Of a DNA stretch of 20,824 bases, positions 3,008-20,442 are shown piece by piece. The DNA is taken from the IMG/VR virus record IMGVR_UViG_3300034631_000031, positions 1 to 20,824 of that record; one strand, 5' to 3'. The position numbers and the translations under genes were made by a program. This DNA is from a virus. A model generated the notes under the pieces. That model searched no databases. It was not told the DNA's origin and saw nothing but the letters and a program-made list of their open reading frames with translations. Every line of letters begins with the position of its first letter. Position 1 is the stretch's first letter.

Positions 3008-3059
3008 AATGGTACGGTTGGGTGGGTTCGAACCACCGACCTCCGGAGCCACAATCCGA
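3008..3059 (-). repeat. Left attachment site (attL), displaced 3' tRNA-His fragment
   Basis: These 52 bases are identical to 20391-20442. On the minus strand they read from the 5' half of the anticodon stem through the anticodon loop, variable loop, T-arm and acceptor 3' strand to CCA. The fragment has no 5' half (D-arm and 5' acceptor strand missing), so it is not a working tRNA. Identity stops at 3060 and at 3007. Extension of the shared segment up to the anticodon arm fits the anticodon-loop crossover used by many tyrosine integrases. Confidence 0.93.
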
Positions 3060-3093
3060 AAGAGGTCCTTATAGCATAGGGGCTTGCGGCTTT

Positions 3094-3114
3094 CATGTCG
3101 CGTCCATGTCGCGT
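3094..3114. repeat. Tandem 11-bp-period repeat, candidate integrase arm sites (left)
   Basis: CATGTCGCGT occurs twice, at 3094-3103 and 3105-3114, one helical turn apart, just after the integrase coding region and inside the left end of the element. The same decamer pair with the same 11-bp spacing occurs at 20243-20263 near the right end. Short repeats phased by one helical turn on both sides of the core sites fit arm-type binding sites of a lambda-like tyrosine integrase or sites for an excisionase. This is inference from position and spacing. Confidence 0.5.
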
Positions 3115-4307
3115 CAGGCCAGCAGCGCAGCCTCTGCCGCAGCCATTTCGGCGCCGTCGTCGCCGCGCGGGAACAGGTGCCCGTAGACGTCCATCGTCAT
3201 GGTGATCGTCGAGTGGCCCATGCGCTCCTGGACGACCTTTGGCGGCAGCCCAAGCCCGCCGTCTTCCTTCCGGTTGATGCACCAGGACGCGTAGAAGTGG
3301 CGCAACGCGTGCAGGCCGGGGTAGCGGGCCGCGAGGATCGGCCTGCCCGCCTCGTCGACCTTGCCGGTGTCGACGGTGACGCCGGCGGCGACCTGGGCCG
3401 GCTGTAGGCCGCGCCGCACGATGTTGTTGAGCTGCTCGACCTTGCCCTGCCCATTGGGGAAGACGAGGCCCAGCGGGCCGTTGGGGTAGGCCAGCTTCCA
3501 TTCCCGCAGCGTGCTGACCACGATCGGCGACACCGGCACCGTGCGCTCGCCGGAGATCGACTTCGGCCTGCCGATCTCGTTGAAGGCGTCGGCGCGCTGG
3601 TGCACGCGGATCTCGCGCTTCTCAAGGTCGACGTCGCTCCAGCGCAGGCCGCGCAGCTCGGATGCCCGCAGGCCGGTGAAGATCGCCGTCAGGAGCAACG
3701 GCCGCCAGCGGCCCTCCAGCACGGCGACGAGCGCCTTGACCTCCTCCCGGGTCGGAATGTCCACGCCCACCTTGAGACGGCCCTTGTGGCGCTTCTCCTG
3801 GCGGCGTTCGCCGCGACCGCGACGGCCGCGAATGTCGCGCACGACGTTGCGGGCCGTGAGGCCTCGCTCCTGCGCATCCGCCAAAAGTGAGCCGAGGCTG
3901 ACGAGGATCTTCTTGACCATCGCCGGCGAGCGCCCGGCCGAGCGGAGATCATCCTCGAACGCGCGCACGATCGGGATGGCCAGGGCGGAGATCTTCGAGG
4001 GCCCGATGAATGGCACGATGTGCAGATCGAGATGGCCCTGGTAGCTGATCACCGTCGTCCGCTCGAGGCCCGCGGCCTTGGCGCTGGCGATCCATAGCTT
4101 GCCCGCCTGGGCTACCGTCGCGCTGGCGCTGTCCGCGACGTGCGTGCCCTCGCGGACCTGGACGCTCGCCGTCGCGGAGAAGGCGTCAGCTTCCTTCTTG
4201 CGAGCGAACGTCTTCAGCCGGCGCTTGCCGGTGCCGTCGACATAATCGACAACCCACGCCGTCTTATCGACGCCTTTCGTGCTCCAGCTGCGCTTCCGTA
4301 CGCTCAC
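3114..4307 (-). CDS. int: Tyrosine recombinase / phage integrase
   Basis: Site-specific recombinase expected to integrate and excise the element at the tRNA-His att sites. The N-terminal part (about 1-50, SVRKRSW...AWVVDYVDGTGKRR) looks like an arm-binding domain. A SAM-like core-binding domain follows at about 65-160. The catalytic domain carries the first Arg in TGLRASELRGLRWSDV, the HxxR box in LHALRHFYASW, the conserved His in MGHSTITMTMDVYGH, and the nucleophile Tyr in that same stretch. I chose the GTG at 4307 (397 aa) because it lies 5 bases after the stop of the upstream regulator gene; upstream starts would overlap that gene and add an unrelated Ser-rich tail. It is transcribed away from the regulatory region, and probably shares its promoter with the ribbon-helix-helix gene. 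Confidence 0.94.
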   Translation of the reverse strand: MSVRKRSWSTKGVDKTAWVVDYVDGTGKRRLKTFARKKEADAFSATASVQVREGTHVADSASATVAQAGKLWIASAKAAGLERTTVISYQGHLDLHIVPFIGPSKISALAIPIVRAFEDDLRSAGRSPAMVKKILVSLGSLLADAQERGLTARNVVRDIRGRRGRGERRQEKRHKGRLKVGVDIPTREEVKALVAVLEGRWRPLLLTAIFTGLRASELRGLRWSDVDLEKREIRVHQRADAFNEIGRPKSISGERTVPVSPIVVSTLREWKLAYPNGPLGLVFPNGQGKVEQLNNIVRRGLQPAQVAAGVTVDTGKVDEAGRPILAARYPGLHALRHFYASWCINRKEDGGLGLPPKVVQERMGHSTITMTMDVYGHLFPRGDDGAEMAAAEAALLA

Positions 4308-4311
4308 AGTC

Positions 4312-4596
4312 CTATTCTTTCTTCTCGGCGTGATTGCGTATTCTGAACTGCTGCTCGGTAATACACTGCTCAAGCTCAGAGCATAGCTTTCTCATCAAGA
4401 TGAGAATTTGATCATCTGATAGATTTTCCACTTCGCCGGGCTTCCTCCCTGCAACTCTGAAACTGTGCAGAAGGCGCTCCACTATCTCGGTGTTCATCGA
4501 GGTCTTGTTTGTGTCGGCGGCTGCCTTGATCCGTTCTCGGAGGCCCGGCGGAAGCCTCAACTGGTACTGGTCCGTATTTGACCGGTTCACGCCCAT
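4312..4596 (-). CDS. Arc-type ribbon-helix-helix transcriptional regulator, 94 aa
   Basis: Small DNA-binding protein of the Arc/Mnt ribbon-helix-helix class. The beta-strand QYQLRLPPGLRERIKAAAD and the following helices (TNKTSMNTEIVERLL) occupy residues about 9-45 and match Arc-like phage regulators. A C-terminal extension of about 45 residues is helical and may oligomerise. The frame is open to 4650, but the ATG at 4596 is preferred: an AGGGA lies 7 bases upstream, and the longer versions would be translated through one of the operator-like repeats. It probably represses its own promoter and the divergent gene at 4704, acting as the element's lysogeny or maintenance switch. The integrase follows after 4 intervening bases, likely in the same transcript. 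Confidence 0.82.
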   Translation of the reverse strand: MGVNRSNTDQYQLRLPPGLRERIKAAADTNKTSMNTEIVERLLHSFRVAGRKPGEVENLSDDQILILMRKLCSELEQCITEQQFRIRNHAEKKE

Positions 4597-4615
4597 CGCA
4601 ATGTCCCTAATGATC

Positions 4616-4684
4616 ATATCCAGCAGATACGATTTCCGATTGACAGGCAATCATATCTGCTGGATATACATATCTGCTGGATAT
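4616..4684. promoter_or_regulatory. Three operator-like repeats between divergent regulators
   Basis: ATATCTGCTGGATAT occurs at 4653-4667 and 4670-4684 in direct orientation, 17 bp apart. The copy at 4616-4630 is inverted and differs only in its first base (GTATCTGCTGGATAT). They fill the gap between the ribbon-helix-helix gene and the 63-aa HTH gene and overlap the likely -10 regions. Arc-class proteins bind tandem short sites as cooperating dimers, so these are the best candidate operators for the 4312-4596 product. The AlpA-like protein is an alternative ligand. Confidence 0.7.
4640..4670 (+). promoter_or_regulatory. Candidate rightward early promoter
   Basis: TTGACA at 4640-4645 is a perfect -35 hexamer. 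A TATACA at 4665-4670 is a possible -10, with a rather long 19-bp spacer; an alternative GATATA at 4663 gives 17 bp. Both -10 options lie inside or next to the operator-like repeats, which would allow repression. It would drive the gene at 4704, which has GGAAGGG upstream of its ATG. Confidence 0.4.
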
Positions 4685-4703
4685 TACGGAAGGGTTACCG
4701 GTA

Positions 4704-4895
4704 ATGACGGACCAAATAGATATGCCCATCGACCTCGTTTGGGGGATCAGGGCGATCGCGAAAGTGATCGGAAAAACGGAACGGGCGACATACGCCATGT
4801 GCGATGCCGGCTTACTGCCGGCGCGGCGTGTCGGCCAGCGGTGGGTAGCCAAGCGGGAAGCGCTGGAGCGCTTTTTCGATGAGGTGGCGGCGTGA
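4704..4895 (+). CDS. AlpA/excisionase-like helix-turn-helix protein, 63 aa
   Basis: Small DNA-binding protein of the MerR-like/AlpA/excisionase class. The segment IRAIAKVIGKTERATYAMCDAG (about 15-36) has the winged-HTH pattern, followed by LLPARRVGQRWVAKREALERFF, the typical wing and C-terminal helix. The ATG at 4704 has a good ribosome site (GGAAGGG). It is the first gene of the rightward operon, facing the ribbon-helix-helix repressor, and its promoter overlaps the three operator-like repeats. By position it may act as excisionase for the integrase, as an activator of the replication genes, or both; the sequence does not decide between these. Confidence 0.78.
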   Translation: MTDQIDMPIDLVWGIRAIAKVIGKTERATYAMCDAGLLPARRVGQRWVAKREALERFFDEVAA

Positions 4896-4986
4896 GGATC
4901 GACGGCGCCGCTAACGACACCCGCCCGGGCCTTCGGATGATCCGGAAAGGCCAGGACCAGCCATGCGGTCTGGCAGAAACGAAAGA

Positions 4987-5015
4987 GCCCGGCCGGGACT
5001 GCCATCCCGCCGGGC
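4987..5015 (+). other. GC-rich hairpin in leader of the 178-aa gene
   Basis: GCCCGGCCGGGA (4987-4998) and TCCCGCCGGGC (5005-5015) form an 11-bp stem with one extra base in the left arm and a 6-base loop. It lies 35 bases before the start at 5051. No U-tract follows, so an intrinsic terminator is unlikely by itself; a transcript-processing or attenuation role is possible. Confidence 0.45.
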
Positions 5016-5050
5016 CTGTGTCACCAGAAATTTCCGAGAAGGAACACCCG

Positions 5051-5587
5051 ATGAACAGCGCTTCAAATAGCACGGCCACGACGGGTATTGCAAACCCGTG
5101 TCCGGTTGTCGTGCTCGCTGTGAAGTTATGCGAGCAGCGCAACCGCTACGGCGAGCTGGAGAATGGTTACAACGCCGAGGCCAATGGATTTCAGGCAACT
5201 TACTACGAGATGGCCAGGCGGCACGTGGACGACATCGATTCCGGGCTGCGCGACATGATCACGTGCACCGAAGCCGCGTCACTGGAAGGCGCGGCGGTTC
5301 AGATTTCTGAGGCGCTTTCGCGCGTCGGCATCATCGCCGAGACCATTAGCTACGACCCGGAAGCTGCCGAGCAGAACAAGCAGGTGCGGGCGATCGACCG
5401 GCTTCTCTATTCGGCGCTGCGGGCTTTGGAAGAGCACTGCGCGGTCGACCTCAACGAAGTCCTCGGCGGCACAGTGATCCATCGCAACATGGATCCGTGG
5501 AGGCCTGTCGAGGAGGTCATCGACGAGATCCGCGTCCGGCGGTCGGCTCCATCCAACGCCCGCGATGGCGACGGCAAAGCCAACTAG
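5051..5587 (+). CDS. Hypothetical protein, 178 aa
   Basis: I do not recognise the family. The frame is open from a GTG at 4892 that overlaps the preceding stop. The ATG at 5051 is chosen because AAGGAA lies 6 bases before it and because the longer version would translate through the GC-rich hairpin at 4987-5015 into a composition unlike the rest. The product is mostly helical and acidic, with stretches such as RRHVDDIDSGLRDMIT and QVRAIDRLLYSALRALEEHC, and no membrane segment. Its place between the AlpA-like gene and the replicative helicase suggests an early function such as regulation or replication support, but this is only context. Confidence 0.72.
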   Translation: MNSASNSTATTGIANPCPVVVLAVKLCEQRNRYGELENGYNAEANGFQATYYEMARRHVDDIDSGLRDMITCTEAASLEGAAVQISEALSRVGIIAETISYDPEAAEQNKQVRAIDRLLYSALRALEEHCAVDLNEVLGGTVIHRNMDPWRPVEEVIDEIRVRRSAPSNARDGDGKAN

Positions 5588-5605
5588 CAGGATCGGTCGT
5601 TTCGA

Positions 5606-7267
5606 ATGAGCAGGGATGAAAACCTCGAGGCGGTGAGAAGGGTGCTCGCCGCCTCGGAACTGGTGTCAGCCGTCGCCGAAAGTCAGGGTGCCTCAGGTCG
5701 AAGTGTCTCCGGGCTGCTGTTCGATGATGGCTCCCTCCACGAGATACGCGGCGACACGACCCTTATCCATGTTGATGCCTTCCCATCTCGCCGACCTGGG
5801 CAGGCCTTCCCATCCGATACCGCCCTGGCGAAGGAAAACGTAACACTCGAGCAGAACGACCGTGACAACGCCATGCGCTTCCTGCGACGGCACCCGACAG
5901 ATCTGATCTCGGTCTATGGCCGGGGCTGGTACGCATGGAACGGCCGGTTCTACGAATATGATGGCGACGGGGCGACCGCCTACAAGCTCGCCGGTGCCGT
6001 AGCCGCCAAGATCCACGACGAGGCGGCGCACATCGCCGCAAAGGACAGGAAGCTGAAGGCGCGCCTGCAGGCCGCCCGGCGCAAGTTCGCAACCCAGTCA
6101 GGCAATCACCGCGGGCAGGGCAACATGCTGCTGCAGGTGGCGGCGCGGCGGCAATTCGACGTCAACAACCTCGACCAGCACCGGCATCGCTTCATTGCCC
6201 GGAATGGCACGATCACCTTCCTGCCCGATGGCGAGGGCGGCTGGCGATTCGACTTTGCGGCTCGGCACGATCCGGCCGATCTCTCGACCCGATGCGTGGA
6301 GGCGGAGTTTCGGGCGGGAGCGGAGTGCCCGAAATGGCGCGCCTTCCTAGAGCAGGTTCAGACCGACCAGGAGCGGCGCCTGTTCCTGCAGCGATGGGCC
6401 GGCCTGCAGCTCCTCGGCGTCATGTCGCATCAATCGATCGTCGTGCACTACGGCCTCGGCGCCAACGGCAAGTCAACCTATGCGAAGGGCCTGGCGAACG
6501 TCATCGGCGGCTATGGCGTCACCGTCGCCAGCGAGACACTGATCGGCCGCACGCAGCGCGAGGGCAACAAGCCGTCGCCCGACCTCGTCCGCCTGATCGG
6601 GGTGCGATCCGTCCAGGTGCACGAGTATCCGTCCAACGAGCCGATCAACGAGGCCATGGTGAAAACCATGACGGGCGGCGAGACGCTGCCAGTGCACGAC
6701 AAGAACAAGCCGATCGTGGAGCTGCATCCGCTCTTCAAACTCGAGGTCTATGCCAACGAACGCCCGCCCATCAACGGCGCAGCCGAGGGCATATGGCGCC
6801 GGTTGCAGCTCGTGCCGTGGCCCGTGACCATTCCGGAAAGGCAGCGGCGGCCAATGGACCAGATCCTCGACGAGTTCAAAGCGGAGAGTTCCGGCATCCT
6901 CAACTGGCTGATCGACGGGGCTTTGCTGTTCCTCGAAAACGGCCTCTCACCGCCCGCCAGCGTCCGCGCGGCCGTCGAAGAATACCGTGACGAGTACGAC
7001 CATGTGGGCGTGTTCATCCGAGAATGCGTCAAGAGCGAACCCGGCCAGACGGTGGCGGGGGCGTACCTGTACGATGCTTACACAAGGTGGTGCAAAGCAA
7101 GCGCCATCGACCCGCACCGCAGCAAAGCTTTCTCGCAGAAGGCAATTGCACACGGCCTGATCAAACGCCGTAACAACGGGTCAAAGTATTACGACATTCA
7201 ACTTCACAACGTCCCTGCGCCCGACCTCGATAACCCTCCCGGCCCCTCCTCTTCGGAGCCCTTCTGA
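5606..7267 (+). CDS. P4/D5-family SF3 helicase (phage/plasmid replication protein)
   Basis: Replicative helicase expected to bind and melt the element's origin as a hexamer. Residues about 120-265 look like the D5_N region, and the AAA+ SF3 helicase core follows. Walker A is GLGANGKST at 283-291, the Walker B-type acidic residue is E340 in VQVHEY, and a sensor-1-like Asn is N384 in EVYANERPP. The C-terminal part (from about 455) resembles the winged-helix domain of P4-type helicases. At 553 aa it is shorter than P4 alpha (777 aa), and I see no catalytic primase domain in the first 120 residues. It may therefore rely on host primase. It ends in a TGATG junction with the next gene, in which the candidate iteron cluster lies. 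Confidence 0.9.
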   Translation: MSRDENLEAVRRVLAASELVSAVAESQGASGRSVSGLLFDDGSLHEIRGDTTLIHVDAFPSRRPGQAFPSDTALAKENVTLEQNDRDNAMRFLRRHPTDLISVYGRGWYAWNGRFYEYDGDGATAYKLAGAVAAKIHDEAAHIAAKDRKLKARLQAARRKFATQSGNHRGQGNMLLQVAARRQFDVNNLDQHRHRFIARNGTITFLPDGEGGWRFDFAARHDPADLSTRCVEAEFRAGAECPKWRAFLEQVQTDQERRLFLQRWAGLQLLGVMSHQSIVVHYGLGANGKSTYAKGLANVIGGYGVTVASETLIGRTQREGNKPSPDLVRLIGVRSVQVHEYPSNEPINEAMVKTMTGGETLPVHDKNKPIVELHPLFKLEVYANERPPINGAAEGIWRRLQLVPWPVTIPERQRRPMDQILDEFKAESSGILNWLIDGALLFLENGLSPPASVRAAVEEYRDEYDHVGVFIRECVKSEPGQTVAGAYLYDAYTRWCKASAIDPHRSKAFSQKAIAHGLIKRRNNGSKYYDIQLHNVPAPDLDNPPGPSSSEPF

Positions 7268-7710
7268 TGCGCCGGAACGGACAGCACACGGACACGACGC
7301 GGACACGTGACGGACGGATCAAACCCCGAGAATGCAGGGCAACGGACACAACGGACAGCAAAACCCTCTTCTTACTCAGGGGGAGAGGGGAAAAGAAAAT
7401 AGAGGAAGAGGATGCGAAAGGTGCTGTCCGTGCCGCCCATGTGTCCGCAAGCACTCATCAAGCCAGCGATGTCAAAGGGTTAGGGCGCGGACAGGTGAGT
7501 GATCGTCCTGTCCGTGGCGGACGCGACGTGTCCGCGCGCATCCTCGACCTGGCGCGGCAGGTGGAGCGGCTGACGGTGACGCGGCACGACCCGCACCGGT
7601 TCTACGAGGATCGATCCGAGATCGCGCACGAGCTGCGGACGGTGGCGCGCGCGCTGCCCCCGGGGGGTGGTTCTGGACTTTCGACCCTTCCAAGGGACCG
7701 GCGCGGGTAG
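7267..7710 (+). CDS. Hypothetical protein overlapping candidate origin; start uncertain
   Basis: The frame begins at an ATG that overlaps the helicase stop (TGATG) and runs 147 codons. The first about 85 residues are encoded by the iteron-like repeats and read as low-complexity sequence (TDTTRTRDG, ATDTTDSKT). Only the segment at about 90-130, RILDLARQVERLTVTRHDPHR onward to EIAHELRTVARAL, looks like a real protein; similar short helical segments are familiar from alphaproteobacterial prophages. The true start may be the GTG at 7498 or 7528, giving a product of about 60-70 residues, with the 5' part being origin DNA that happens to be open. Function is unknown. Confidence 0.5.
   Translation: MRRNGQHTDTTRTRDGRIKPRECRATDTTDSKTLFLLRGRGEKKIEEEDAKGAVRAAHVSASTHQASDVKGLGRGQVSDRPVRGGRDVSARILDLARQVERLTVTRHDPHRFYEDRSEIAHELRTVARALPPGGGSGLSTLPRDRRG
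7278..7534. repeat. Iteron-like TGTCCG repeat cluster, candidate replication origin
   Basis: Ten exact TGTCCG hexamers (either strand) and two CGTCCG variants occur in 257 bp. On the minus strand: 7278, 7289, 7300, 7311 (variant), 7343, 7352, 7488 and 7518 (variant). On the plus strand: 7425, 7442, 7509 and 7529. The first four are spaced exactly 11 bp apart, one helical turn. Between 7358 and 7424 is a repeat-free purine- and A-rich stretch (GGGGAAAAGAAAATAGAGG), a plausible unwinding element. P4 alpha protein is known to bind short TGTTCACC-type iterons at its origin, so a cluster directly after a P4-type helicase gene is a strong origin candidate. Confidence 0.72.
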
Positions 7711-7724
7711 GTACGCGCGAGATA

Positions 7725-7743
7725 TTTCCGAATTGGAAAATTC
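7725..7743. promoter_or_regulatory. Inverted repeats upstream of HTH gene, possible operator
   Basis: Two overlapping inverted repeats, TTTCC-GAATT-GGAAA (7725-7739) and GAATT-GGAA-AATTC (7730-7743), lie just before the ribosome site of the gene at 7756. The stretch is AT-rich in a GC-rich region and could be an operator or promoter element controlling entry into the morphogenesis operon. Confidence 0.32.
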
Positions 7744-7755
7744 AGAGGACACGAG

Positions 7756-7998
7756 ATGAGCAGGGCAGCACTCACCCCATCAAATTTTGACCGGACGATT
7801 TCCGCGCCCGGAAAATCGCCGCGCATCATCTGGACGCTGCCGGCGATTGGGCGGAGGATCGGCACCAGCCCCGACTTCGTGAGGAATACACTCGTGAACG
7901 TCGATGGCTCGCCGATCCGCGAAATCGGCGGCCGGTTTTATTGTTTCGAAGAAGATCTGCTCGAATTCATGCGGAGCGAACGGAACAAACCGGCTTAA
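7756..7998 (+). CDS. Small helix-turn-helix DNA-binding protein, 80 aa
   Basis: Residues about 25-72 (IWTLPAIGRRIGTSPDFVRN, then IREIGGRFYCFEEDLLEFM) have the layout of an AlpA/MerR-like winged HTH: recognition-helix region, beta-wing with GGRFYCF, then a terminal helix. GAGGA precedes the ATG by a short spacer. It is the last gene before the portal gene, 61 bases away. Some HK97-type phages carry a small HTH protein here that acts as a terminase small subunit, but a separate P27-type TerS is present at 13810. A transcriptional regulator of the late operon is therefore the simpler reading. The inverted repeats just upstream could be its own operator. Confidence 0.72.
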   Translation: MSRAALTPSNFDRTISAPGKSPRIIWTLPAIGRRIGTSPDFVRNTLVNVDGSPIREIGGRFYCFEEDLLEFMRSERNKPA

Positions 7999-8059
7999 AC
8001 CCCCTCCGCCCCGGTCAAACCGTTCGTCGGATCGGGGCCGCTTCCCGCATCTTTGGGGC

Positions 8060-9280
8060 ATGCGCTGGCCCTTCTCATCCTCCGATCCGATCGAGACGAA
8101 AGCCCCGTCGGGTACGTCCGTGCCCGACGAATGGATGTTCGAGCTCTTCGGCGGTGGCGTCGTCGCCGACTACGCCGTCACCGGGGCGCAGGCCCTCGAG
8201 GTTCCGGCCGTGGCCTCGGCCATCTCCCTTATCTCCGGTTCCATCGCCAGCCTCGGAATGATCGTCGAGCGCCGCGAGGGCGATGCGTGGGTGCCGGCCC
8301 TTGACCATCCGACGGCGCTCCTTCTGGAGGACGCACCGAACGACTGGAGCGATACCTACACGCTGGTGCGCGACCTCGTGGCCTCCGCCCTTACCTGCAA
8401 CGAGGGAGGACTTGCCTTCGCCAACAAGCGCGACGGCGAGGTGGTCGAGCTGATCCACTACGAGAAGGGAACCTTCACGGTCGATTACAGCACCGACGGC
8501 CGGAGCGAGCCATCCTACCGGATCGGCAATCGGCTTGTCGGAGCGAGCGAAGTGGTTCACCTTCGCGGCCCGTTCACGAAATGCCCGCTCGTGCTGGCGT
8601 CCGGCGCCATCGGCGTAGCGCACAAGATGGAACGGCACGCCGGCAGCTTCTTCAGCCAGATGGCCCGCCCTGGCGGCGTGATCACCAGCCCCAAGGCCCT
8701 CGGCGACGACGGCGTGAAGCGGATGCTGAAGGGCTGGAAGGCTGCCCACGAGGGCGGCGGCAAGGCTGGCAAGACCGCGATCTTATGGGACGGCGCGACC
8801 TGGGCGCAGATGACTATGACGAGCGTCGACGCGCAGTTCCTTGAGACCTGGCGTCACGCCATCAACGAGATCGGCCGTCACTTTCGGGTGCCTCCTGGTG
8901 CCCTCTACGATTTCGAGCGCCAGACCTGGAGCAACATGGAATCGGCCCAGAAGGAATGGCTTGCCGGCCTCGAATTCTGGCTGCGTCCCCTGGAAGGCGC
9001 CATGCGCCGGGCGCTGTTCTCCGCCGAGGAGCGCGGCACCCACCGCATTCGCTTCGACCGGGACGATTTCACAGCCGTCGATCTCACCGCACGCGCCACT
9101 GCCGTTTCATCCCTGATCGCATCCCGCGTCATCAATCCGAACGAGGCGCGCGACTGGCTTGGTATGGGCCCGCGAGACGGCGGAGCAGAGTTCGCCAATC
9201 CACACACCGGAGCAAGCCAGGCTGGCGCCGCTGCGCCACAGAACCCTGTTCCTGACCCGGCGGCGACCGATGACGCTTGA
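8060..9280 (+). CDS. HK97-family phage portal protein
   Basis: Dodecameric portal at the unique capsid vertex through which TerL pumps DNA and to which the neck attaches. The 406-residue length is typical. The N-terminus MRWPFSSSD is a common portal start, and VPAVASAISLISGSIASLGM, GGVITSPKAL, and WSNMESAQKEWLAGLEFWL are family-typical stretches. The frame is open upstream to 7904, where it overlaps the HTH gene in another frame; the ATG at 8060 gives the normal N-terminus although its ribosome site (TTTGGGG) is weak. It is the first structural gene here, whereas HK97-type clusters usually have the terminase genes before it. Its end overlaps the next start by 11 bases. Confidence 0.95.
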   Translation: MRWPFSSSDPIETKAPSGTSVPDEWMFELFGGGVVADYAVTGAQALEVPAVASAISLISGSIASLGMIVERREGDAWVPALDHPTALLLEDAPNDWSDTYTLVRDLVASALTCNEGGLAFANKRDGEVVELIHYEKGTFTVDYSTDGRSEPSYRIGNRLVGASEVVHLRGPFTKCPLVLASGAIGVAHKMERHAGSFFSQMARPGGVITSPKALGDDGVKRMLKGWKAAHEGGGKAGKTAILWDGATWAQMTMTSVDAQFLETWRHAINEIGRHFRVPPGALYDFERQTWSNMESAQKEWLAGLEFWLRPLEGAMRRALFSAEERGTHRIRFDRDDFTAVDLTARATAVSSLIASRVINPNEARDWLGMGPRDGGAEFANPHTGASQAGAAAPQNPVPDPAATDDA

Positions 9281-9656
9281 CGAGATCCTGCACAACGTCG
9301 CCGACCAGGACCGTGGTCGAGAGTTCGAGCTTGACGATCCAGTGACGGGGCAGCCGACTGGGATCAAGTTGCGCGTCGTCGGCCCGGACAGCGACACGGC
9401 GAACCGCGCTCGCATCGCCCTCTACGACGAGCTGGCCGAGATGGCCGACGCCGATGGTCGGGTATCGGCGGAGAACCGGGAGAAGGCCCGCCTCAACTCG
9501 CTGGGCCGTCACGTCCTCGGATGGGAACTGGTCGAGGAAGGCCAGCCGGTCCCGTTCAACACCACCAACCTCCTGCGGCTCCTCCGGGTGCAGTGGGTAC
9601 AGGCGCAGGTCGATGGTTTCGCGTCCGACCGCGCCGCGCATCGTGGGGCCGTCTGA
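9270..9656 (+). CDS. Phage structural-module protein, possibly tail assembly chaperone-like
   Basis: 128 residues from the ATG at 9270, which overlaps the portal gene by 11 bases. The N-terminal half has a beta-rich pattern with GREFELDDPVTGQPTGIKLR. The C-terminal half is helical and includes LGWELVEEGQPVPFNTTNL followed by a QVDGFASDRAA tail. The pattern 'Trp-rich short strand, then P-F-T-x-x-N-hydrophobic, then helix ending in a short acidic tail' is familiar from small tail assembly chaperone-like proteins of siphophages. Placement between portal and protease is unusual for such a gene. The family call is tentative; that it is a real gene in the operon is well supported by tight overlaps on both sides. 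Confidence 0.65.
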   Translation: MTLDEILHNVADQDRGREFELDDPVTGQPTGIKLRVVGPDSDTANRARIALYDELAEMADADGRVSAENREKARLNSLGRHVLGWELVEEGQPVPFNTTNLLRLLRVQWVQAQVDGFASDRAAHRGAV

Positions 9657-10165
9657 TGGATCGCCTCGACCTCACAACCAAGCAGCTCGCCGTCGACGAG
9701 GACGGCACGATCGAGGGCATCGCCTGGCCCTACGCCAAGCCCGACCGTGCCGGCGACATCATCAAAAAGGGTGCGCTGCGCCTGCCGGTGGCCGAGCTGC
9801 CGATGCTCCGCAACCACGACACCGACCTCCTCATCGGGCTCTGGGAGAAGATCGAGGAGCGTGAGGACGGCTTGCACGTCAAAGGTCGGCTCGACCTCAA
9901 GTCCATGCTGGCACGAGGCGTTCGCAGCCAGATCCTCACGGGTCGCCTCAACGGCCTGTCCATCGGCTTCCGCGATCGCGGCTCAACCCGACGCGGGCGC
10001 AACCGCATCCTCTCGGCGATCGAACTGGTCGAAGTCTCGATCGTCCGCGAGCCCTCGCATCCCGATGCGCGGATCACCCTCTCGAAATCCTACGACGCGG
10101 CCCGCGGCCTCGCCGAGGCCATCAACCGCGCCAACGAGGCGCTGAAGCAAGGAATCTCCCGATGA
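9656..10165 (+). CDS. HK97-family prohead maturation protease
   Basis: Serine protease (Pfam/MEROPS S78 type) that cleaves the delta domain of the major capsid protein during head maturation. The 169-aa length is normal. The N-terminus has EDGTIEGIAWPYAKPDRAGD, and the catalytic pair appears as H54 in LRNHDTDLLIGLW and S102 in RLNGLSIGFR. The following ELVEVSIVREPSHPDARI is highly typical. The start overlaps the preceding stop as TGATG, and the stop overlaps the capsid start by four bases. The substrate is the next gene's product. Confidence 0.94.
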   Translation: MDRLDLTTKQLAVDEDGTIEGIAWPYAKPDRAGDIIKKGALRLPVAELPMLRNHDTDLLIGLWEKIEEREDGLHVKGRLDLKSMLARGVRSQILTGRLNGLSIGFRDRGSTRRGRNRILSAIELVEVSIVREPSHPDARITLSKSYDAARGLAEAINRANEALKQGISR

Positions 10166-11352
10166 AGCATTTCGCACTCATGGCCTCCGCGTCGGCTGTT
10201 GCACTCGCGATGCCGCCTGTCGAGTTCAAGGGCGACGATGGCGACGGCGATCCCGTCGAGGTCGTGACCAAGAGCCTCGAAACGCTCCAGTCGACGATCG
10301 ACGAGCGCTTCAAGGCGATCGAGACTAAGGGCGACACGTCGAAGCTCGACGAGCGCCTGAAGAAGCTGGAGACCAAGGCCAACCGCCCCGCCGGCGAAAC
10401 CGGCGAGAAGAAGGACGAGGCGATCGAGAAGAAGGCGCTCGCCACCTTCCTGCGCTCCGGTGTCCATGCCCTCGACGACGTCGAGAAGAAGACCCTCAAC
10501 CTCGGGTCCAATCCCGCCGGCGGCTATGTCGTCGCGCCGGAGTTCTCGACCCGTGTCCTGGAGACGATCAGCGAACAGTCGCCGATGCGTTCGGTGGCCG
10601 GCATCATGTCGATCGGCACCACGGAAGTCGTCATCCCCAAGTTGGCGTCGAACGTCCAGCCCGGCTGGGTGACGGAAACCGGCCCGCGTCCTGTCTCCGA
10701 ACCGACCTTCGATCAGCAGACGATCAAGGTCCACGAACAGGCCGTCATCGTCCCGGTGTCGCAGCAGCTCCTCGAGGACAGCTTCCTCGACCTGGAGGCG
10801 TTCCTGCGCAACCACATCGGCCGCGAGTTCGCGAAGATGGAGGCGGCCGCCTTCGTCAACGGCGACGGCAACGGCAAGCCCCTCGGCTTCCTCGCCGACG
10901 CTGCTGACTATGAGGCGATCGAGGTGGCGGTGGACGGCAGCGACCTTGTGGACGGCCTGATGGCCCTCTACTACGCGCTGCCGACCGAATATGCCCGCCG
11001 GGCCTCGTGGATGCTGAACCGCAAGACCCTCGCCACCATCCGCGGCTTGAAGGATGCGAACGGCGCCTTCATCTGGCAGCCGGGCCTCGTGGCGGGTGCT
11101 CCGAACCTGCTCTTCGGTCGCCCGGTGATCGAGGCCGTCGACATGCCCGACCTCGCGGCCGGCACGTACCCGGCAGCCTTCGGCGATTTCCAGACCGGCT
11201 ATCAGATCGTCGACCGCATCGGCATCCAGACCATGCGCGACGACTACACCGGCGCCGACAACGGCATCGTCAAGATCCGCGCCCGTCGCCGGGTCGGCGG
11301 CGCCACGGTCATGCCGGAAGCCATCGCGGTCCTTCAGGGAGCGGCGGCGTGA
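10162..11352 (+). CDS. HK97-family major capsid protein
   Basis: Main shell subunit, 396 aa. Residues about 1-95 are the delta (scaffolding) domain with a charged coiled coil at about 37-75 (LQSTIDERFKAIETKGD, DERLKKLETKANR), expected to be removed by the upstream protease. The mature HK97 fold begins near GYVVAPEFSTRVLETISEQS and includes VIPKLASNVQPGWVTETGP, FVNGDGNGKPLGFL and WMLNRKTLATIRGLKDANG, all typical. The first 22 residues are hydrophobic and Ala-rich (MKHFALMASASAVALAM) and look superficially like a signal peptide. Because they sit at the delta-domain tip, export is unlikely. It overlaps the protease gene by four bases and the next gene by one (TGATG). Confidence 0.96.
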   Translation: MKHFALMASASAVALAMPPVEFKGDDGDGDPVEVVTKSLETLQSTIDERFKAIETKGDTSKLDERLKKLETKANRPAGETGEKKDEAIEKKALATFLRSGVHALDDVEKKTLNLGSNPAGGYVVAPEFSTRVLETISEQSPMRSVAGIMSIGTTEVVIPKLASNVQPGWVTETGPRPVSEPTFDQQTIKVHEQAVIVPVSQQLLEDSFLDLEAFLRNHIGREFAKMEAAAFVNGDGNGKPLGFLADAADYEAIEVAVDGSDLVDGLMALYYALPTEYARRASWMLNRKTLATIRGLKDANGAFIWQPGLVAGAPNLLFGRPVIEAVDMPDLAAGTYPAAFGDFQTGYQIVDRIGIQTMRDDYTGADNGIVKIRARRRVGGATVMPEAIAVLQGAAA

Positions 11353-11513
11353 TGAGCACGAAGAGCCAGGCGGAGGTCGACGCTTTCGTGGCCGACCTCC
11401 GCCGCACCAAAGGCGGCGTCACCGTTTCGGAGGCGGACGGCGAGACCGTCATCCGTACCCGCGACGGCGACGAGCACCGCTTCAAGGTCGGCAAGGCCAA
11501 GAAGGCGGATTGA
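11352..11513 (+). CDS. Small hypothetical protein, 53 aa
   Basis: The ATG overlaps the capsid stop (TGATG), so translation is probably coupled. The product starts MSTKSQAEVDAFVADLRRTK and ends with a basic tail GKAKKAD. A short helix followed by beta strands (TVSEADGETVIRTRDGDEHRF) suggests a small alpha/beta fold. I recognise no family. Small proteins directly after the capsid gene can be head-associated, but nothing in the sequence proves that. Confidence 0.65.
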   Translation: MSTKSQAEVDAFVADLRRTKGGVTVSEADGETVIRTRDGDEHRFKVGKAKKAD

Positions 11514-11515
11514 CC

Positions 11516-11878
11516 ATGCCGTTTCGCGCTCCCCGTGTCTGCGGCTATTGCGGCGGCGCTCATCCTTCGGGTGAGCGCTGCGGCAAGGTCGCGGCCATGG
11601 ATCGGGAGCGCAAGGCCCGCTTCGACAAGACGCGGCCAACCGCGCGAGCCCGCGGCTACACCGCCAAGTGGGAGCGTGAGAGCAAGGCGTATCTCGCCGT
11701 CCATGGCTCCTGCCGCCGCTGCGGCCGGGCTGCCTCCCTCGTCGACCACACCACTCCGCACAAGGGTGACCAACGCCTGTTCTGGGACCGCCGCAACTGG
11801 CAGCCCCTGTGCACCCCCTGCCACTCGGGCGCCAAGCAGAGCGAAGAGCGCCGATCCCCCAAGAGGACCCAGCTATGA
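11516..11878 (+). CDS. HNH endonuclease
   Basis: Zinc-binding HNH nuclease of 120 aa. An N-terminal CxxC pair (CGYCGG) is followed by the main module with CRRCGRAASLVDHTTPHKGD, then the Asn in NWQPLC, and CTPCHSGAKQSEE. The DH..H..N..H arrangement is complete, so it should be active. In several HK97-type phages an HNH protein works with the terminase during cos cleavage and head morphogenesis; here it lies in the head-tail operon but not next to the terminase. The ATG at 11516 is preferred over a TTG two codons earlier because AAGGCGG lies at good spacing. Confidence 0.9.
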   Translation: MPFRAPRVCGYCGGAHPSGERCGKVAAMDRERKARFDKTRPTARARGYTAKWERESKAYLAVHGSCRRCGRAASLVDHTTPHKGDQRLFWDRRNWQPLCTPCHSGAKQSEERRSPKRTQL

Positions 11879-12363
11879 GCATGCTTCTCGTTACCGCAGG
11901 GTCGAAGCTGTCGATCGGTGCGCCCAAGGCCTTCGACGGCACCGACCTTCTCGCGGCCGACTTCACGACCGGCTCGCCCGCCTGGACGGAGATCGGCGGC
12001 ACGACCAATCTCGGCAGTGCTGGCGACACCAGCGAACTGATCACGTCGAACCAGATCAGCGCCGCCCGGACCCGCAAGGCCAAGGGCACCCGCAACGCCG
12101 GCAGCATGGCCGTCGTCTGCGACATCGATCTCACCGACCCGGGTCAGATCGCGGTGATCGCGGCGGAGAAGACCCGCGAGAGCTATGCGTTCAAGCTCGA
12201 GTTCAACGATGCGCCGGCGGGCGGTACGCCTTCGACCCGGTATTTCGTGGCCTACGTGATGAGCGCTTCCGAACAGCTCGACGAAGCCAATTCGGCGACC
12301 AAGCTGAATGCCACGCTGGAGATCGACAGCAACATCGTCCGCGTGCCGGCGGCGGCGGCCTAA
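11875..12363 (+). CDS. Phage tail tube (major tail) protein
   Basis: 162-aa protein expected to form the tail tube around the tape measure. The start overlaps the HNH stop as ATGA. Family-like features are a beta-rich body with WTEIGGTTNLGSAGDTSELI, then RTRKAKGTRNAGSMAVVCDI and TDPGQIAVIAAEKTRESYAF, the pattern of gpV/TTP-type proteins. The C-terminus ends in Ala-rich VRVPAAAA. In common siphophage maps the tail tube gene comes after the neck genes and just before the chaperone and tape measure; here it precedes the connector genes and is about 3.4 kb from the tape measure. Confidence 0.82.
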   Translation: MSMLLVTAGSKLSIGAPKAFDGTDLLAADFTTGSPAWTEIGGTTNLGSAGDTSELITSNQISAARTRKAKGTRNAGSMAVVCDIDLTDPGQIAVIAAEKTRESYAFKLEFNDAPAGGTPSTRYFVAYVMSASEQLDEANSATKLNATLEIDSNIVRVPAAAA

Positions 12364-12365
12364 GC

Positions 12366-12680
12366 ATGGCACTCACCGTCGACGTCCTGCGCGAGCATCT
12401 GAATATGACGGTCGGAGAGGCGGACGCGATCGACGCGGCCGTCCTCCCGCGTCTGCTCGCCGCAGCGACGGCGCACACCGAGACACAGCTCGGCTTCAAG
12501 ATGGACGACGCCGAGGAGTTTCCCGCCGGCGCGCCCGCCGACGTCGAGCAGGCCGTCCTGATGCTCGCCGCCTTCTGGTACGAAAACCGCGAAAGCGTCC
12601 TCATCGGCGTCTCGGCGCAGGCCGTCCCGCACGGTTATGATGACATCATCGGCAGTCACAGGAGCTATACCTTTGGCTGA
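12366..12680 (+). CDS. gp6-like head-tail connector protein
   Basis: 104-aa adaptor that docks under the portal ring (HK97 gp6 / SPP1 gp15 type). MALTVDVLREHLNMTVGEAD, then VLPRLLAAATAHTETQLGF and VEQAVLMLAAFWYENRESV show the classic all-helical arrangement. The gene begins two bases after the tail tube stop. Its 3' end contains the ribosome site and start of the gp10 gene. Confidence 0.87.
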   Translation: MALTVDVLREHLNMTVGEADAIDAAVLPRLLAAATAHTETQLGFKMDDAEEFPAGAPADVEQAVLMLAAFWYENRESVLIGVSAQAVPHGYDDIIGSHRSYTFG

Positions 12681-13089
12681 CGATGGCGGCCTCGCGAAAC
12701 TGCAGCGCCGGCTCCTGGCGATCCCGCGGGACGTCGTGGAGGCCGGCGGCAAGGCTGCGCAGCGCCAGGCCGAACAGATCGCCGCTACCGCGCGCGCCCT
12801 GGCTCCGGAGAAGACTGGCGATCTCAAGCGGTCGATCTCCGTCACCCCGGCCGGGCAGCAGACCCCAGCCTATTCGCAGCCCGGCGGCTCGATGACGGTG
12901 GCGAGCAATGCGGCCGCCGTGACCGCCGGCGACACCGATGTCCGCTATCCCCACCTCGTGGAGTACGGGAGCCGGAACGCCAACGCGCGGCCGTTCTTCT
13001 GGCCCGCCGTGAGGCTCCACAGGAAGCGCTCGCAGAAGGCTATCAAGGCGGCGATCCGGCGCGCCATCAAGAAGCGAGGCGCGTCATGA
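12673..13089 (+). CDS. HK97 gp10-family neck/tail completion protein
   Basis: 138-aa protein of the HK97 gp10-like family, which works at the head-tail junction or tail completion. Typical segments are ARALAPEKTGDLKRSISV, the HLVEYGSRNANARPFFWPAV stretch and a very basic C-terminal helix (RKRSQKAIKAAIRRAIKKR). I chose a TTG start at 12673 because AGGAG (12660-12664) lies 8 bases upstream and the product then begins MADDGGLAKLQRRL as in relatives. The ATG at 12637 would add 12 residues coded in antiphase with the connector gene. It overlaps the connector gene by 8 bases and the next gene by four. Confidence 0.88.
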   Translation: MADDGGLAKLQRRLLAIPRDVVEAGGKAAQRQAEQIAATARALAPEKTGDLKRSISVTPAGQQTPAYSQPGGSMTVASNAAAVTAGDTDVRYPHLVEYGSRNANARPFFWPAVRLHRKRSQKAIKAAIRRAIKKRGAS

Positions 13090-13496
13090 GCGCCGCGCTC
13101 GCCGTCCAGAAGGCCATCCGGGACCGGCTCGTGTCGACGGACGCCGTCACCGCGCTCGTGCCGGCCTCGGCGATCCTCGACCGAAACAGCCGCCCGGCGC
13201 CCGACCCATCCATCATCCTCGGCGAGGACCAGGAGGTCGATGAGGGCGACATCGCCCGCCGTAACGTCCGCGTCTATTCGACCCTGCATTTGTGGAAGCG
13301 CGAGACCGGGCTCACCGGCGTCAAGGCCATCGCCGGCGCGATCCGCTCGGCGATCGCGGCGAGGTTCCCCCAGGCGGACGGTTTCCACTTCGCGGACAGC
13401 CGCGTCTCTTCGACCCGCTTCCTGCGCGATCCGGACGGCGAGACGGCGCATGGCGTGGTGACGATTGAGACGCTGGTGCACGAGGTAGCGACGTGA
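13086..13496 (+). CDS. DUF3168-family tail terminator/completion protein
   Basis: 136-aa protein of the DUF3168 family, structurally related to tail terminator proteins that cap the tail tube and join it to the head. Diagnostic stretches are LAVQKAIRDRLVSTDAVTAL, ILDRNSRPAPDPSIILGED, and LHLWKRETGLTGVKAIAGAI. The ATG overlaps the gp10 stop as ATGA, and its own stop overlaps the next GTG start as GTGA. This fits a translationally coupled neck block: gp6, gp10, DUF3168, head closure. Confidence 0.89.
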   Translation: MSAALAVQKAIRDRLVSTDAVTALVPASAILDRNSRPAPDPSIILGEDQEVDEGDIARRNVRVYSTLHLWKRETGLTGVKAIAGAIRSAIAARFPQADGFHFADSRVSSTRFLRDPDGETAHGVVTIETLVHEVAT

Positions 13497-13813
13497 GAGC
13501 CGGCAATCTCGACCGCACCATCACGCTCCTGGCCCATGTCGAGGGGGAGCCCGATCAATACGGCAACGTGACCGCCGGCTGGACCGACGCCGGCACCTTC
13601 CGCGCGGCCATCGTCACTCTCTCCACCGAGGAGTTTCTGCGCAGCTACGGCGAGACGAGCGAGGCAGTGATCGTCTTCCGCACCCGGTTCTTGCCTGGCG
13701 TGACGACCTCGCACCGGGTCGATTTCGAAGGCCGGATCTTCGACATCAAGGAACTGAAGGAGATTGGTCGCCGCGACGGGCTCGAATGGCGCTGCGAAGA
13801 GGTGCAGCCGTGA
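13493..13813 (+). CDS. Phage head closure / head-tail adaptor protein
   Basis: 106-aa protein of the SPP1 gp16-like head-tail joining family, which seals the portal channel after packaging. The pattern MRAGNLDRTITLLAHVEGEP, DQYGNVTAGWTDAGTFRAAI and FEGRIFDIKELKEIGRRDGL is characteristic. It uses a GTG start overlapping the DUF3168 stop (GTGA) and is followed by terS through another GTGA overlap. It completes the neck block. Confidence 0.87.
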   Translation: MRAGNLDRTITLLAHVEGEPDQYGNVTAGWTDAGTFRAAIVTLSTEEFLRSYGETSEAVIVFRTRFLPGVTTSHRVDFEGRIFDIKELKEIGRRDGLEWRCEEVQP

Positions 13814-14193
13814 AGGGCACCAAGCCGCATCTCGTCGTCATCAACGGTGCCTTGAGCGCCTTTCCCGCGCCGCCCGACTGGCTTTCATTGGCTGCGCAAA
13901 AGGAATGGCAGCGGGTGCAGCCGTATCTCGAGGAGCGGAAGATGCTCACCGACATCGACCTGTCGAACCTCGAAAACTACTGCGTCGCCCAAGGCCGGAT
14001 CCGCGAGTGCGAGGCGGAAATGGCGACGGTGAACGACCTCAACGTCAAGTCCAAGCTCTGGCGCATGCAGAACCAGGCCATGGCCACGGCCCGCCAGATC
14101 GCGGCGGAGCTGGGGCTTACGCCGATGGCGCGCTCGCGTCCGGTGATCCGAGATCTGTTCGACGGTGAAGATGACCCGCTCAACATATCCTGA
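13810..14193 (+). CDS. P27-family terminase small subunit
   Basis: DNA-recognition subunit of the packaging motor, 127 aa, P27 family. Segments PPDWLSLAAQKEWQRVQPYL, DLSNLENYCVAQGRIRECEA and MATARQIAAELGLTPMARSR match the family well. The GTG start at 13810 overlaps the preceding stop (GTGA). Its 3' end overlaps the terL start by about 23 bases. It should define which DNA is packaged. A dedicated TerS means the element can choose its own DNA instead of relying on a helper's packaging machinery. Confidence 0.9.
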   Translation: MKGTKPHLVVINGALSAFPAPPDWLSLAAQKEWQRVQPYLEERKMLTDIDLSNLENYCVAQGRIRECEAEMATVNDLNVKSKLWRMQNQAMATARQIAAELGLTPMARSRPVIRDLFDGEDDPLNIS

Positions 14194-15772
14194 CTGGATC
14201 TACGACGGTTCGCCCATCGCCGACCCTCAGGGTTTCGGGGAGCGCGCTGTGCGTTTCCTGCGATCGCTGCGGCACCCGAAAAGCGGGACGGCATTCCAGC
14301 TCGACCCCTGGCAGGAGCGGATCGTGCGGCGGATCTACGGGCCGCGCAAGGATGACGGCAGCCGCATCGTCCGGACGGTCGTGCTCCTCCTTCCACGCGG
14401 CAACCGGAAGACGAGCCTGGCGGCGGCGCTGGCGCTCCTCCACACGATCGGGCCGGAGCGCATTCCGGGCGGCGAGGTCATCATCGGCGCCTCCGATCGG
14501 AAGCAGGCCCGGATCGGCTACCACGAGGCGAAGGGGCTCTGTCTGGCGCACCCGAAGATCGCGCCAAGGGTCCGCCTGGCCGACTATCAGAACCGACTGA
14601 CCTATCCGTCCACCGGTAGCTTCCTCGAGGCGATCAGCGCCGACGCTGGAACACAGCACGGGCGAACACCCGTCTTCGTTCTCGCCGACGAGCTGCACGC
14701 CCACAAGAAGCGCGATCTGTGGGACGTGCTCCGCTCCGGCCTAGTGAAGACGCCCGGGTCGCTGCTGGTCGTGGCGACCACCGCTGGACGCGGCCAGGAG
14801 AACATCGCCCACGACATCGTCGACGACGCCCGCAAGGTGGCGCGAGGCGATGTCTACGACCCGACCATCCTGCCCGTGCTCTTCGAAACGCAGAAGGACG
14901 AGGACTGGACCGACGAGGCCGTCTGGCACCGTGCGAACCCCGGCCTCGTTCACGGTTATCCGGACCTCGAGGGACTTCGCCAGCTCTGCATCGAAGGGCA
15001 GCGCCGTGTCGGCGATCGGGAGGCGTTCCGCCAGCTCAACCTGAATATCTGGCTCGACCACTCAGCCGATCCCTTCGTGGAGATGAGCCTCTACGACGAG
15101 GGTCGCGGCGAAGTCGACATCGAGGATCTGGAGATCAGGCAGGAGCCGTGCTGGCTCGGCGTCGACCTGTCGAGCAACGCCGACCTGACATGCGTCGTCG
15201 CTGCTTGGCGGGATGGTGACGGCTACCAGGTGCGCCCGTGGTTCTTCTGCCCGGAGGACCGGCTGCACGAGCGCGCAGACCGCGACCAGGTGCCTTATCC
15301 GACCTGGGCCGAAGCCGGCCATATCACGCCGACGGACGGCAACGTAGTCGATTTCCGGGCGGTGGCGGGCTGCATCCGCGAGATCTGCGCGACCTACAAC
15401 GTCGCCGAGATCGCCTTCGACCCGCATCTGGCGCGCGTCATGATGGCGGAACTCCAGGAGGAAGGCCTGCCCGTCGTGGAGATGCGGCAGGGCTGGGTCA
15501 CGATGGCGCCGGCGGTGAAGGAACTGGAGCGCGCCATTGTCGGTCGGGCATTCAGGCATGGCGGCCATCCGGTCCTGCGCTGGAATTTCGAGAACATTGC
15601 CGTCCACACCGACAGCGCCGGCAACAGGATCCTCCACAAGGGCAAGAGCCGCGACCGGATCGACGGCGCCGTGGCAACCGCCATGGCCGTCGGCCGGGCG
15701 ATGGCCGGCAAAAGCAACCGATCCTCCTACGACGACGCCGACGAGAACTTCGAGGACTGGGCCTATGCGTGA
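14171..15772 (+). CDS. Terminase large subunit
   Basis: ATP-driven packaging motor with headful or cos nuclease, 533 aa. The ATPase domain has a variant Walker A LLLPRGNRKTS (K80) and Walker B VFVLADELH (D173, E174), followed by a coupling-type stretch LLVVATTAGRG. The RNase H-like nuclease domain has the acidic residues D332 in GVDLSSNADLT, D417 in IAFDP and D498 in DRIDGAVATAMA. All key residues seem intact. A GTG two codons upstream (14165) is an alternative start; neither has a strong ribosome site, and coupling to terS is likely. The gene lies after the neck genes and before the tape measure, which is unusual. Confidence 0.96.
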   Translation: MTRSTYPDWIYDGSPIADPQGFGERAVRFLRSLRHPKSGTAFQLDPWQERIVRRIYGPRKDDGSRIVRTVVLLLPRGNRKTSLAAALALLHTIGPERIPGGEVIIGASDRKQARIGYHEAKGLCLAHPKIAPRVRLADYQNRLTYPSTGSFLEAISADAGTQHGRTPVFVLADELHAHKKRDLWDVLRSGLVKTPGSLLVVATTAGRGQENIAHDIVDDARKVARGDVYDPTILPVLFETQKDEDWTDEAVWHRANPGLVHGYPDLEGLRQLCIEGQRRVGDREAFRQLNLNIWLDHSADPFVEMSLYDEGRGEVDIEDLEIRQEPCWLGVDLSSNADLTCVVAAWRDGDGYQVRPWFFCPEDRLHERADRDQVPYPTWAEAGHITPTDGNVVDFRAVAGCIREICATYNVAEIAFDPHLARVMMAELQEEGLPVVEMRQGWVTMAPAVKELERAIVGRAFRHGGHPVLRWNFENIAVHTDSAGNRILHKGKSRDRIDGAVATAMAVGRAMAGKSNRSSYDDADENFEDWAYA

Positions 15773-15781
15773 GGTGGAGCG

Positions 15782-17830: not shown

Positions 17831-18177
17831 ACGTCTTCCCCGCTTCCCTTCCGCAGATCATGGAGCGCGACGGATTCAGCCGTGGCTATGGAGATGGTCG
17901 CCTGCGCTCGCCCACTGACGCCGGCGGCGGCAAGTCCCGGCGCCGGTTTTCCTATATGCCGGAGCCGGTGAAGGGCTCGATCGTGATGACCGGCGCGCAG
18001 CTGGCGATCTTCCGGGCATTCATCGACGAGACGCTGAAGGGCGGCACGCTGCCGTTCTACTTCCCGGCGCAGGGTGAGCTTGGGCAGTGGATCGTCAAGA
18101 TAGGCCAGGCGATGCCCTCAGAGGCGCCCATGGGACTGAACTGGCGGGTCGACCTCGACCTGGTGCGGCTGCCATGA
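17827..18177 (+). CDS. Minor tail protein, gpM-like
   Basis: 116-aa protein starting in an ATGA overlap with the tape measure. MNVFPASLPQIMERDGFSRG, RRRFSYMPEPVKGSIVMTG, FRAFIDETLKGGTLPFYFPA and LNWRVDLDLVRLP fit a family of small proteins found directly after the tape measure in siphophages, in the position of lambda gpM. It probably joins the tape measure tip to the distal tail. The family assignment rests on pattern and position. Confidence 0.65.
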   Translation: MNVFPASLPQIMERDGFSRGYGDGRLRSPTDAGGGKSRRRFSYMPEPVKGSIVMTGAQLAIFRAFIDETLKGGTLPFYFPAQGELGQWIVKIGQAMPSEAPMGLNWRVDLDLVRLP

Positions 18178-18686: not shown

Positions 18687-19036
18687 TGACGCCGGCCATG
18701 TTCCGGCTCCGGCGCCAGCTCTGCGTAGCGGCGGCGGCTGACAAGCCGAACGTGCCGGAAGCCGGGCGCCTTCTCTGGTCGTGGTTCCTTGCACTCCACG
18801 GTACGCGGATCGTGACCATGGCCGGCGCGCAGGCAATCAGCCACGCCGAGATCGAAGCTTTTTCCCGGGTCGAGAAGCTGACGATCAGGCCTGATCATGT
18901 TGCGACCCTCCGCGCCATCGACGATGCCTGGCTGGCGAAGGCGAGGACCTCCAGTGGCGGGTCGCCTGAGAGCGGCAAGCTGATCCAATCCAGGCAGGAG
19001 ATGAACCCTGCCGTTTTCGATGCGATGTTCGGATGA
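18686..19036 (+). CDS. Phage tail-module protein, possibly assembly-related
   Basis: 116-aa protein starting in a TGATG overlap. The core VPEAGRLLWSWFLALHGTRI, ISHAEIEAFSRVEKLTIRPD and LRAIDDAWLAKAR has the 'Trp-rich helix, then PIS/ISHAEI, then I/M-D-x-A-hydrophobic' layout familiar from small tail-associated proteins of proteobacterial phages. I cannot assign a precise role. No slippery frameshift sequence is evident at its borders. It is followed by the zinc-ribbon protein through an ATGA overlap. Confidence 0.6.
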   Translation: MTPAMFRLRRQLCVAAAADKPNVPEAGRLLWSWFLALHGTRIVTMAGAQAISHAEIEAFSRVEKLTIRPDHVATLRAIDDAWLAKARTSSGGSPESGKLIQSRQEMNPAVFDAMFG

Positions 19037-19995: not shown

Positions 19996-20015
19996 CGGGA
20001 GATCATGGATAATTA

Positions 20016-20228: not shown

Positions 20229-20242
20229 GGAGGCCTCCGAAT

Positions 20243-20390: not shown

Positions 20391-20442
20391 AATGGTACGG
20401 TTGGGTGGGTTCGAACCACCGACCTCCGGAGCCACAATCCGA
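20391..20442 (-). repeat. Right attachment site (attR), within intact tRNA-His
   Basis: Identical to 3008-3059 over 52 bases. It supplies the 3' part of the tRNA-His gene, so integration restored the gene and left the displaced fragment at the left end. Identity breaks at 20390 and 20443. Confidence 0.93.

Follow-up and report, generated by a model that had tools for sequence, protein, structure and literature searches.

The window analysed here, the whole of IMG/VR virus record IMGVR_UViG_3300034631_000031 (20,824 bp), carries an integrated element, roughly 17.4 kb long and bounded by 52-bp exact direct repeats (Table 1), with the bacterial gene xseA outside it on the left. The element begins with an integrase, followed by a small helix-turn-helix protein (4704-4895, HTH_17), a 231-aa open reading frame (ORF; 4892-5587), a helicase of the D5/P4 family, a repeat array, and then the head, packaging and tail genes. 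The genes 3' of the array encode a portal, protease, major capsid protein, connectors, small and large terminase subunits, tape measure, minor tail protein, tail assembly chaperone and an HNH nuclease. Their order at 14165-19036 is unusual: the head-tail connectors are followed by terminase and then directly by the tape measure gene, and the tail assembly chaperone comes after the minor tail protein. Neither a lysis gene nor a major tail protein was found among the element proteins searched, and megablast of the element against PLSDB returned no similar plasmid.

Table 1 Features of the integrated element and its putative replication origin (window coordinates).
Feature	Position	Strand	Details
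Left attachment-site repeat	3008..3059		Duplicates 52 bp of tRNA-His exactly
Tyrosine integrase of the element carrying the putative origin	3114..4373	-	Domain match
D5/P4-family helicase, 553 aa, putative initiator	5606..7267	+	D5_N 89-252; AAA+ core, Walker A about 283-290; Pox_D5 465-535
Codons for helicase residues 465-535 (Pox_D5, winged-helix-like), candidate iteron-binding domain	6998..7210	+	Analogy with SaPI Rep, Cch2 and P4 alpha (PMC7581432, PMC4234260)
ORF147, overlaps the array	7267..7710	+	Coding-like in the C part (about 7531-7707), not across the repeats
Left arm of putative origin	7278..7357		CGGACA on + at 7278, 7289, 7300, 7343, 7352; variant CGGACG at 7311
Repeat-free purine-rich gap, candidate melting site	7358..7424		Base composition
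Right arm of putative origin, mostly opposite orientation	7425..7534		TGTCCG at 7425, 7442, 7509, 7529; flipped CGGACA at 7488; variant CGGACG at 7518
Right attachment-site repeat	20391..20442		Within tRNA-His 20393-20469(-)

The helicase matched TIGR01613 (primase_Cterm) with 209 bits against a cut-off of 108.7, D5_N with 63.9 against 22.4 and Pox_D5 barely above its cut-off (21.7 against 21.4), which bears out the P4-type helicase that the initial annotation had placed just before the repeats. Its predicted structure (mean pLDDT 89.4) has a winged-helix-like domain at the C-terminal end and was best matched by the SaPI5 primase-helicase (Z 29.8, r.m.s.d. 4.8 over 397 residues, residues 71-539), further by poxvirus D5/E5 (vaccinia D5, Z 28.2) and then by the ASFV PrimPol. 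The C-terminal domain of P4 alpha was not among the structural matches listed, which carries no weight either way. No primase domain was found in the 553-aa protein.

The array lies directly 3' of the helicase gene, with the first repeat at 7278. Counting both strands, the 257 bp at 7278-7534 hold ten exact copies of TGTCCG (CGGACA) and two CGGACG variants (CGTCCG on the other strand), the numbers given in the initial annotation; a third CGGACG in the region, at 7636, lies beyond the cluster. The window as a whole has 20 copies of TGTCCG where 15.4 are expected, so there is no global enrichment of the hexamer; 1.2% of the sequence accounts for half of these copies, and the other ten are scattered. 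In dinucleotide shuffles of the whole window (n = 60), TGTCCG reached at most 4 copies per 257 bp and any hexamer at most 8; in local shuffles of the 257 bp alone (n = 5000), the mean for TGTCCG was 0.30 and the maximum 5. Clustering of TGTCCG here is far above chance, and the density comparison proposed in the initial annotation shows that the hexamer is not equally dense elsewhere.

The copies form two arms that face opposite ways, a point absent from the initial annotation: the five exact copies on the left read in one direction and four of the five exact copies on the right in the other (-----[gap]++-++, or +++++[gap]--+-- in the opposite reading). The claimed perfect 11-bp spacing of the first four repeats stands as spacing (7278-7289-7300-7311), although the fourth member is a variant. 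From arm to arm the distance is 73 bp start to start, and the 67 bp between them are free of copies. This gap is indeed the purine/A-rich stretch described before (37% A, 34% G): its AT content of 51%, against 35% in the window, is in the top 2.7% among 67-bp stretches of the element, and its final 45 bp are 89% purine on the + strand (top 0.03%).

The array had also been described as hidden inside an ORF. Formally it is, all of it lying within ORF147, as would be expected of a repeat at the protein level; the repeat-bearing part, however, lacks a coding-like codon-position bias (GC 0.65/0.55/0.59, versus 0.66/0.45/0.80 in the helicase), and coding-like signal is limited to the last ~60 codons. 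Since, in addition, the copies occupy all three reading phases and both strands, the array is a feature of the DNA and not a protein repeat, and with the shuffles excluding chance low-complexity sequence as well, the probability left for either explanation is negligible. No conserved protein spanning the repeats has been found so far in relatives. The C part of ORF147 has weak relatives (40-49% over 34-49 aa) behind the helicases of loci L463, L454, L503, L506, L508 and L510. Segments of this kind, behind helicases of different classes, adjoin or just follow an iteron array at L463:2857-3003, L454:2477-2578, L503:4105-4224, L506:3809-3910 and L508:3885-4004.

As a single query, the helicase retrieved no relative from viral contigs or genome contigs. 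We therefore characterize relatives fetched, by protein similarity only, with a four-sequence helicase alignment (window, L038, L079 and L003); two of these four queries had originally been found through the hexamer, the fetched relatives had not. The sample comprised 80 loci from bacterial genomes and 80 viral contigs, the best 80 of each scan, with some near-duplicates among them. In 150 usable GC-rich loci, we compared the 600 bp starting 100 bp before the helicase stop with 5044 other stretches of the same loci, using the copy number of the best hexamer, a count that also catches simple GC repeats. The median was 8 copies after the helicase versus 5 elsewhere, and at least 8 copies were present in 59% of post-helicase stretches versus 6% of the others. 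In 73 of the 150 loci the post-helicase stretch was the top repeat stretch (4.8 expected); about 30% of the D5 relatives had under 7 copies there.

The two-arm layout recurs in these relatives. Arrays with at least 8 copies were split at their largest gap, giving 85 non-redundant loci in which the arms were oppositely oriented in 71, in the same orientation in 5 and tied in 9. The median was 5 repeats per arm and 90 bp for the gap (quartiles 82-101); in 70 of the 85, AT content was higher in the gap. The sign pattern of the window is also that of L156, L169 and L269. Repeat sequences vary by lineage (AACCCTCGCA, GGGAGGAT, AACTGTCA, AACTATCGC, TGGTGCA, CTTCCC and others). Judged from sequence, position and architecture are conserved behind D5 helicases and the hexamer is not, so that the comparison of related elements envisaged in the initial annotation finds the array retained with a lineage-specific repeat in place of TGTCCG.

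Conservation of TGTCCG itself behind D5 helicases was considered and rejected, its density there being 0.36 per kb versus 0.66 per kb elsewhere. In a control scan, the reversed hexamer GCCTGT formed 8 mixed-orientation clusters, none of which had a Walker-A ORF ending within 500 bp, compared with 13 of 44 for TGTCCG. Distant D5 relatives with CGGACA repeats are present in a genome of Caulobacter vibrioides and in three viral contigs (L202:7595-7821, L038:5462-5760, L079:3686-3925 and L003:10594-10806); the C-terminal domains of these helicases are only about 20% identical to that of the window.

Complete phages carry the same array behind the helicase: Aurantimonas phage AmM-1, Synechococcus phage Sc-Yong805-1, Pseudanabaena phage Pan4, Microcystis phage Mae-JY28 and Mycobacterium phage MacnCheese. 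Weaker arrays follow the helicase of Rhodobacter phage RcapNL, Paracoccus phage Pthi1 and Bacillus phage phi105, and none was seen behind that of Rhizobium phage RR1-A or Arthrobacter phage JasmineDragon. Its presence in complete phages argues that the layout is wider than PICIs and, as several complete phage genomes have it, it seems to be a property of the helicase family and not of satellites. In Sc-Yong805-1, six plus six AGGGAG(GA) repeats form a nearly perfect dyad (L408:4198-4547), which makes this phage a good experimental model for such origins. In Lactobacillus phages A2 and phiadh, the deposited rep_origin begins where a related D5-family primase gene ends, and that of A2 contains ACGGGA repeats, four in each orientation. 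These annotations are the strongest link from array position to function.

A portal search returned 16 loci, on contigs mostly of 15-20 kb. In three of them (L496, L499 and L500), portal, capsid and terminase are 64-85% identical to those of the window, and no D5 helicase and no TGTCCG array was found. Five others (L502 and L505-L508) have an AAA_25-type helicase, and in L502, L505, L507 and L508 another clustered repeat begins at or just behind its stop. Because sister elements with another helicase lack the TGTCCG array, helicase and array have been swapped as a unit within this family of small elements, and this joint exchange argues for an array that belongs to the helicase and not to packaging or general regulation. 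The window element (3008-20442) and those of L496-L510 form a family of compact, att-bounded elements that have head, packaging and tape-measure genes of their own and swap replication modules freely; the family resembles capsid-forming PICIs (cf-PICIs) but retains some tail genes.

These sister elements weigh on two further explanations. Opposed repeat arms can be used by cooperative repressors, and the structural operon lies downstream of the array, so a repressor or nucleoid protein might use it as an operator or silencer with no part in replication; yet the three sister elements with a different helicase keep the similar structural genes and have no array, and in phages whose downstream genes differ the arrays track the helicase gene. 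We regard such a regulatory site as improbable. A packaging (cos/pac) site would suit the portal gene 0.5 kb downstream and the occurrence of repeats in terminase-binding sites, but L496, whose portal is 78%, TerL 82%, capsid 79% and integrase 78% identical to those of the window, has no TGTCCG array, and in Pan4 and Pthi1, where arrays directly follow the helicase, other genes intervene before terminase. This makes a packaging site very improbable indeed.

TGTCCG also recurs behind an unrelated helicase class. A TGTCCG-triplet scan of viral contigs yielded helicases with an array at the 3' end of the gene; all ten that were tested were AAA_25, and five of these ten had Prim-Pol and/or PriCT_2 domains. 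Among AAA_25 relatives fetched by protein, with query sequences that themselves came from the hexamer scan, the density of TGTCCG around the helicase stop was 5.3 per kb, eightfold the 0.66 per kb of other regions; about 28 of the 69 loci had it as their top hexamer, and a frequent arrangement was ++--++-- spanning some 105 bp. These arrays may represent a second class of origin with a different layout. Helicases of this type, many of them with Prim-Pol, that have TGTCC-type repeats near the 3' end are found in L416-L495 (for example, L418:5828-6069, L422:3209-3477 and L448:3965-4064). An alignment of eight AAA_25 sequences was too divergent for scanning. A DNA-binding C-terminal domain common to AAA_25 and D5 helicases was unsupported, as the C-terminal regions of the two did not align (hhalign probability 0.2%).

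The array could also be an origin whose iterons are bound by another protein. Phage lambda provides a parallel for a separate iteron-binding loader, with lambda O loading DnaB. The product of the 231-aa ORF or of ORF147 could likewise bind the repeats and load the helicase, an arrangement we consider unlikely. Consistent with it, a small gene resembling the C part of ORF147 lies behind helicases of different classes, TGTCCG is shared with the AAA_25 class, and the correlation between iteron and helicase C-terminus is modest: in a segment scan against iteron similarity, close pairs gave rho 0.44 for residues 450-474, 0.30-0.35 for 465-534 and 0.36-0.41 for 300-339, values that are confounded, and over all helicase pairs the core predicted iteron similarity better than the C-terminus. 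Against it, the architecture tracks the D5 helicase across phyla, in genomes without another obvious common gene there; neither Pfam nor NCBIfam gave a match for the 231-aa ORF, and tblastn found no ORF147 relative in any D5 locus; and two D5 relatives, SaPI5 Rep and Cch2, have been described as helicases that bind origins (PMC7581432). At a core identity of about 0.46, the nearest helicases have iterons other than TGTCCG, so binding of this hexamer by the window helicase is not deducible from homology.

Taken together, we favour the reading (probability about 0.8) that 7278-7534 is the SaPI/PICI-type replication origin of the 17.4-kb element, with TGTCCG as the iteron, bound by the helicase and melted in the gap. 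The initial annotation had proposed an origin with a new iteron behind the helicase, and this is supported by an array beyond chance and by the same position and architecture behind related helicases. The element would first excise, and the helicase encoded just upstream would then use its C-terminal winged-helix domain to recognise the ACGGACA/TGTCCGT iterons. Helicase molecules would assemble on both of the opposed arms, probably forming a pair of face-to-face hexamers, and would melt the purine-rich gap and separate as replicative helicases, with priming by the host or by an unrecognised primase. That the C-terminal domain binds, that the gap melts and that replication starts bidirectionally are each proposed by analogy with known relatives.

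SaPI/PICI-type origins are already known; of greater interest are how general the layout is among complete phages and that TGTCCG is reused after helicases of an unrelated class. The layout can be read as a rule: 0-400 bp after the stop of a D5/P4-type helicase, look for a pair of opposed repeat arms with a gap of about 90 bp between them. With this rule, origins are predicted in many phages, prophages and satellites that are still uncharacterised. Natural pairs of helicase and iteron make the recognition code of self-loading helicases directly testable. More tentatively, and with odds we put below even, gene-trailing iteron arrays might be general to replicative helicases of phages and satellites, with dozens of diversifying specificities on a constant two-arm architecture, and TGTCC(G) might be an origin code that recurs in D5/SF3 and AAA_25 helicases through exchange of DNA-binding parts or convergence.

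Among known systems, the P4 origin had been taken as the model. P4 alpha shares the TIGR01613 helicase family and a C-terminal winged-helix DNA-binding domain, but TGTTCACC-type P4 iterons have no copy in the 20,824-bp window, which has a single array and no second, crr-like repeat cluster (the other ten hexamers are dispersed), and the window helicase differs in the lack of a detected primase domain; the closest known model is instead the SaPI/PICI origin. Cch2 of SCCmec has the same D5/primase_Cterm helicase domain, and its C-terminal domain bound repeats 3' of its gene in vitro (PMC7581432), as the window helicase may do; there the site has three AAGTG iterons, in contrast to 12 repeats in two arms here. 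The essential origin of pRN1 likewise lies directly 3' of the gene for an SF3 helicase with a C-terminal winged helix, orf904 (PMC4234260), but is a stem-loop of ~100 nt without iterons. The rep_origin features of A2 and phiadh share the start at the end of a D5-family gene and, in A2, the two opposite sets of repeats; they differ in their iterons (ACGGGA in A2; AACTATAC, mostly in one orientation, in phiadh), low-GC hosts and longer primase-helicase proteins.

The SaPI/PICI origin agrees most closely. The C-terminal domain of SaPI Rep acts on iterons directly downstream of the rep gene (PMC7581432), PICI origins have an AT-rich region between two iteron sets (PMC6092414), and the window has both the position and the two sets around an AT-richer gap, behind a helicase with the predicted fold of SaPI5 Rep. 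The window iteron differs, and the element has head, packaging and some tail genes of its own. In gene content it resembles cf-PICIs, with capsid, portal, protease, connectors, both terminase subunits and an HNH endonuclease between att repeats 17.4 kb apart, and differs from them in carrying tail genes, namely a tape measure (E 5e-161), a minor tail protein and a tail assembly chaperone.
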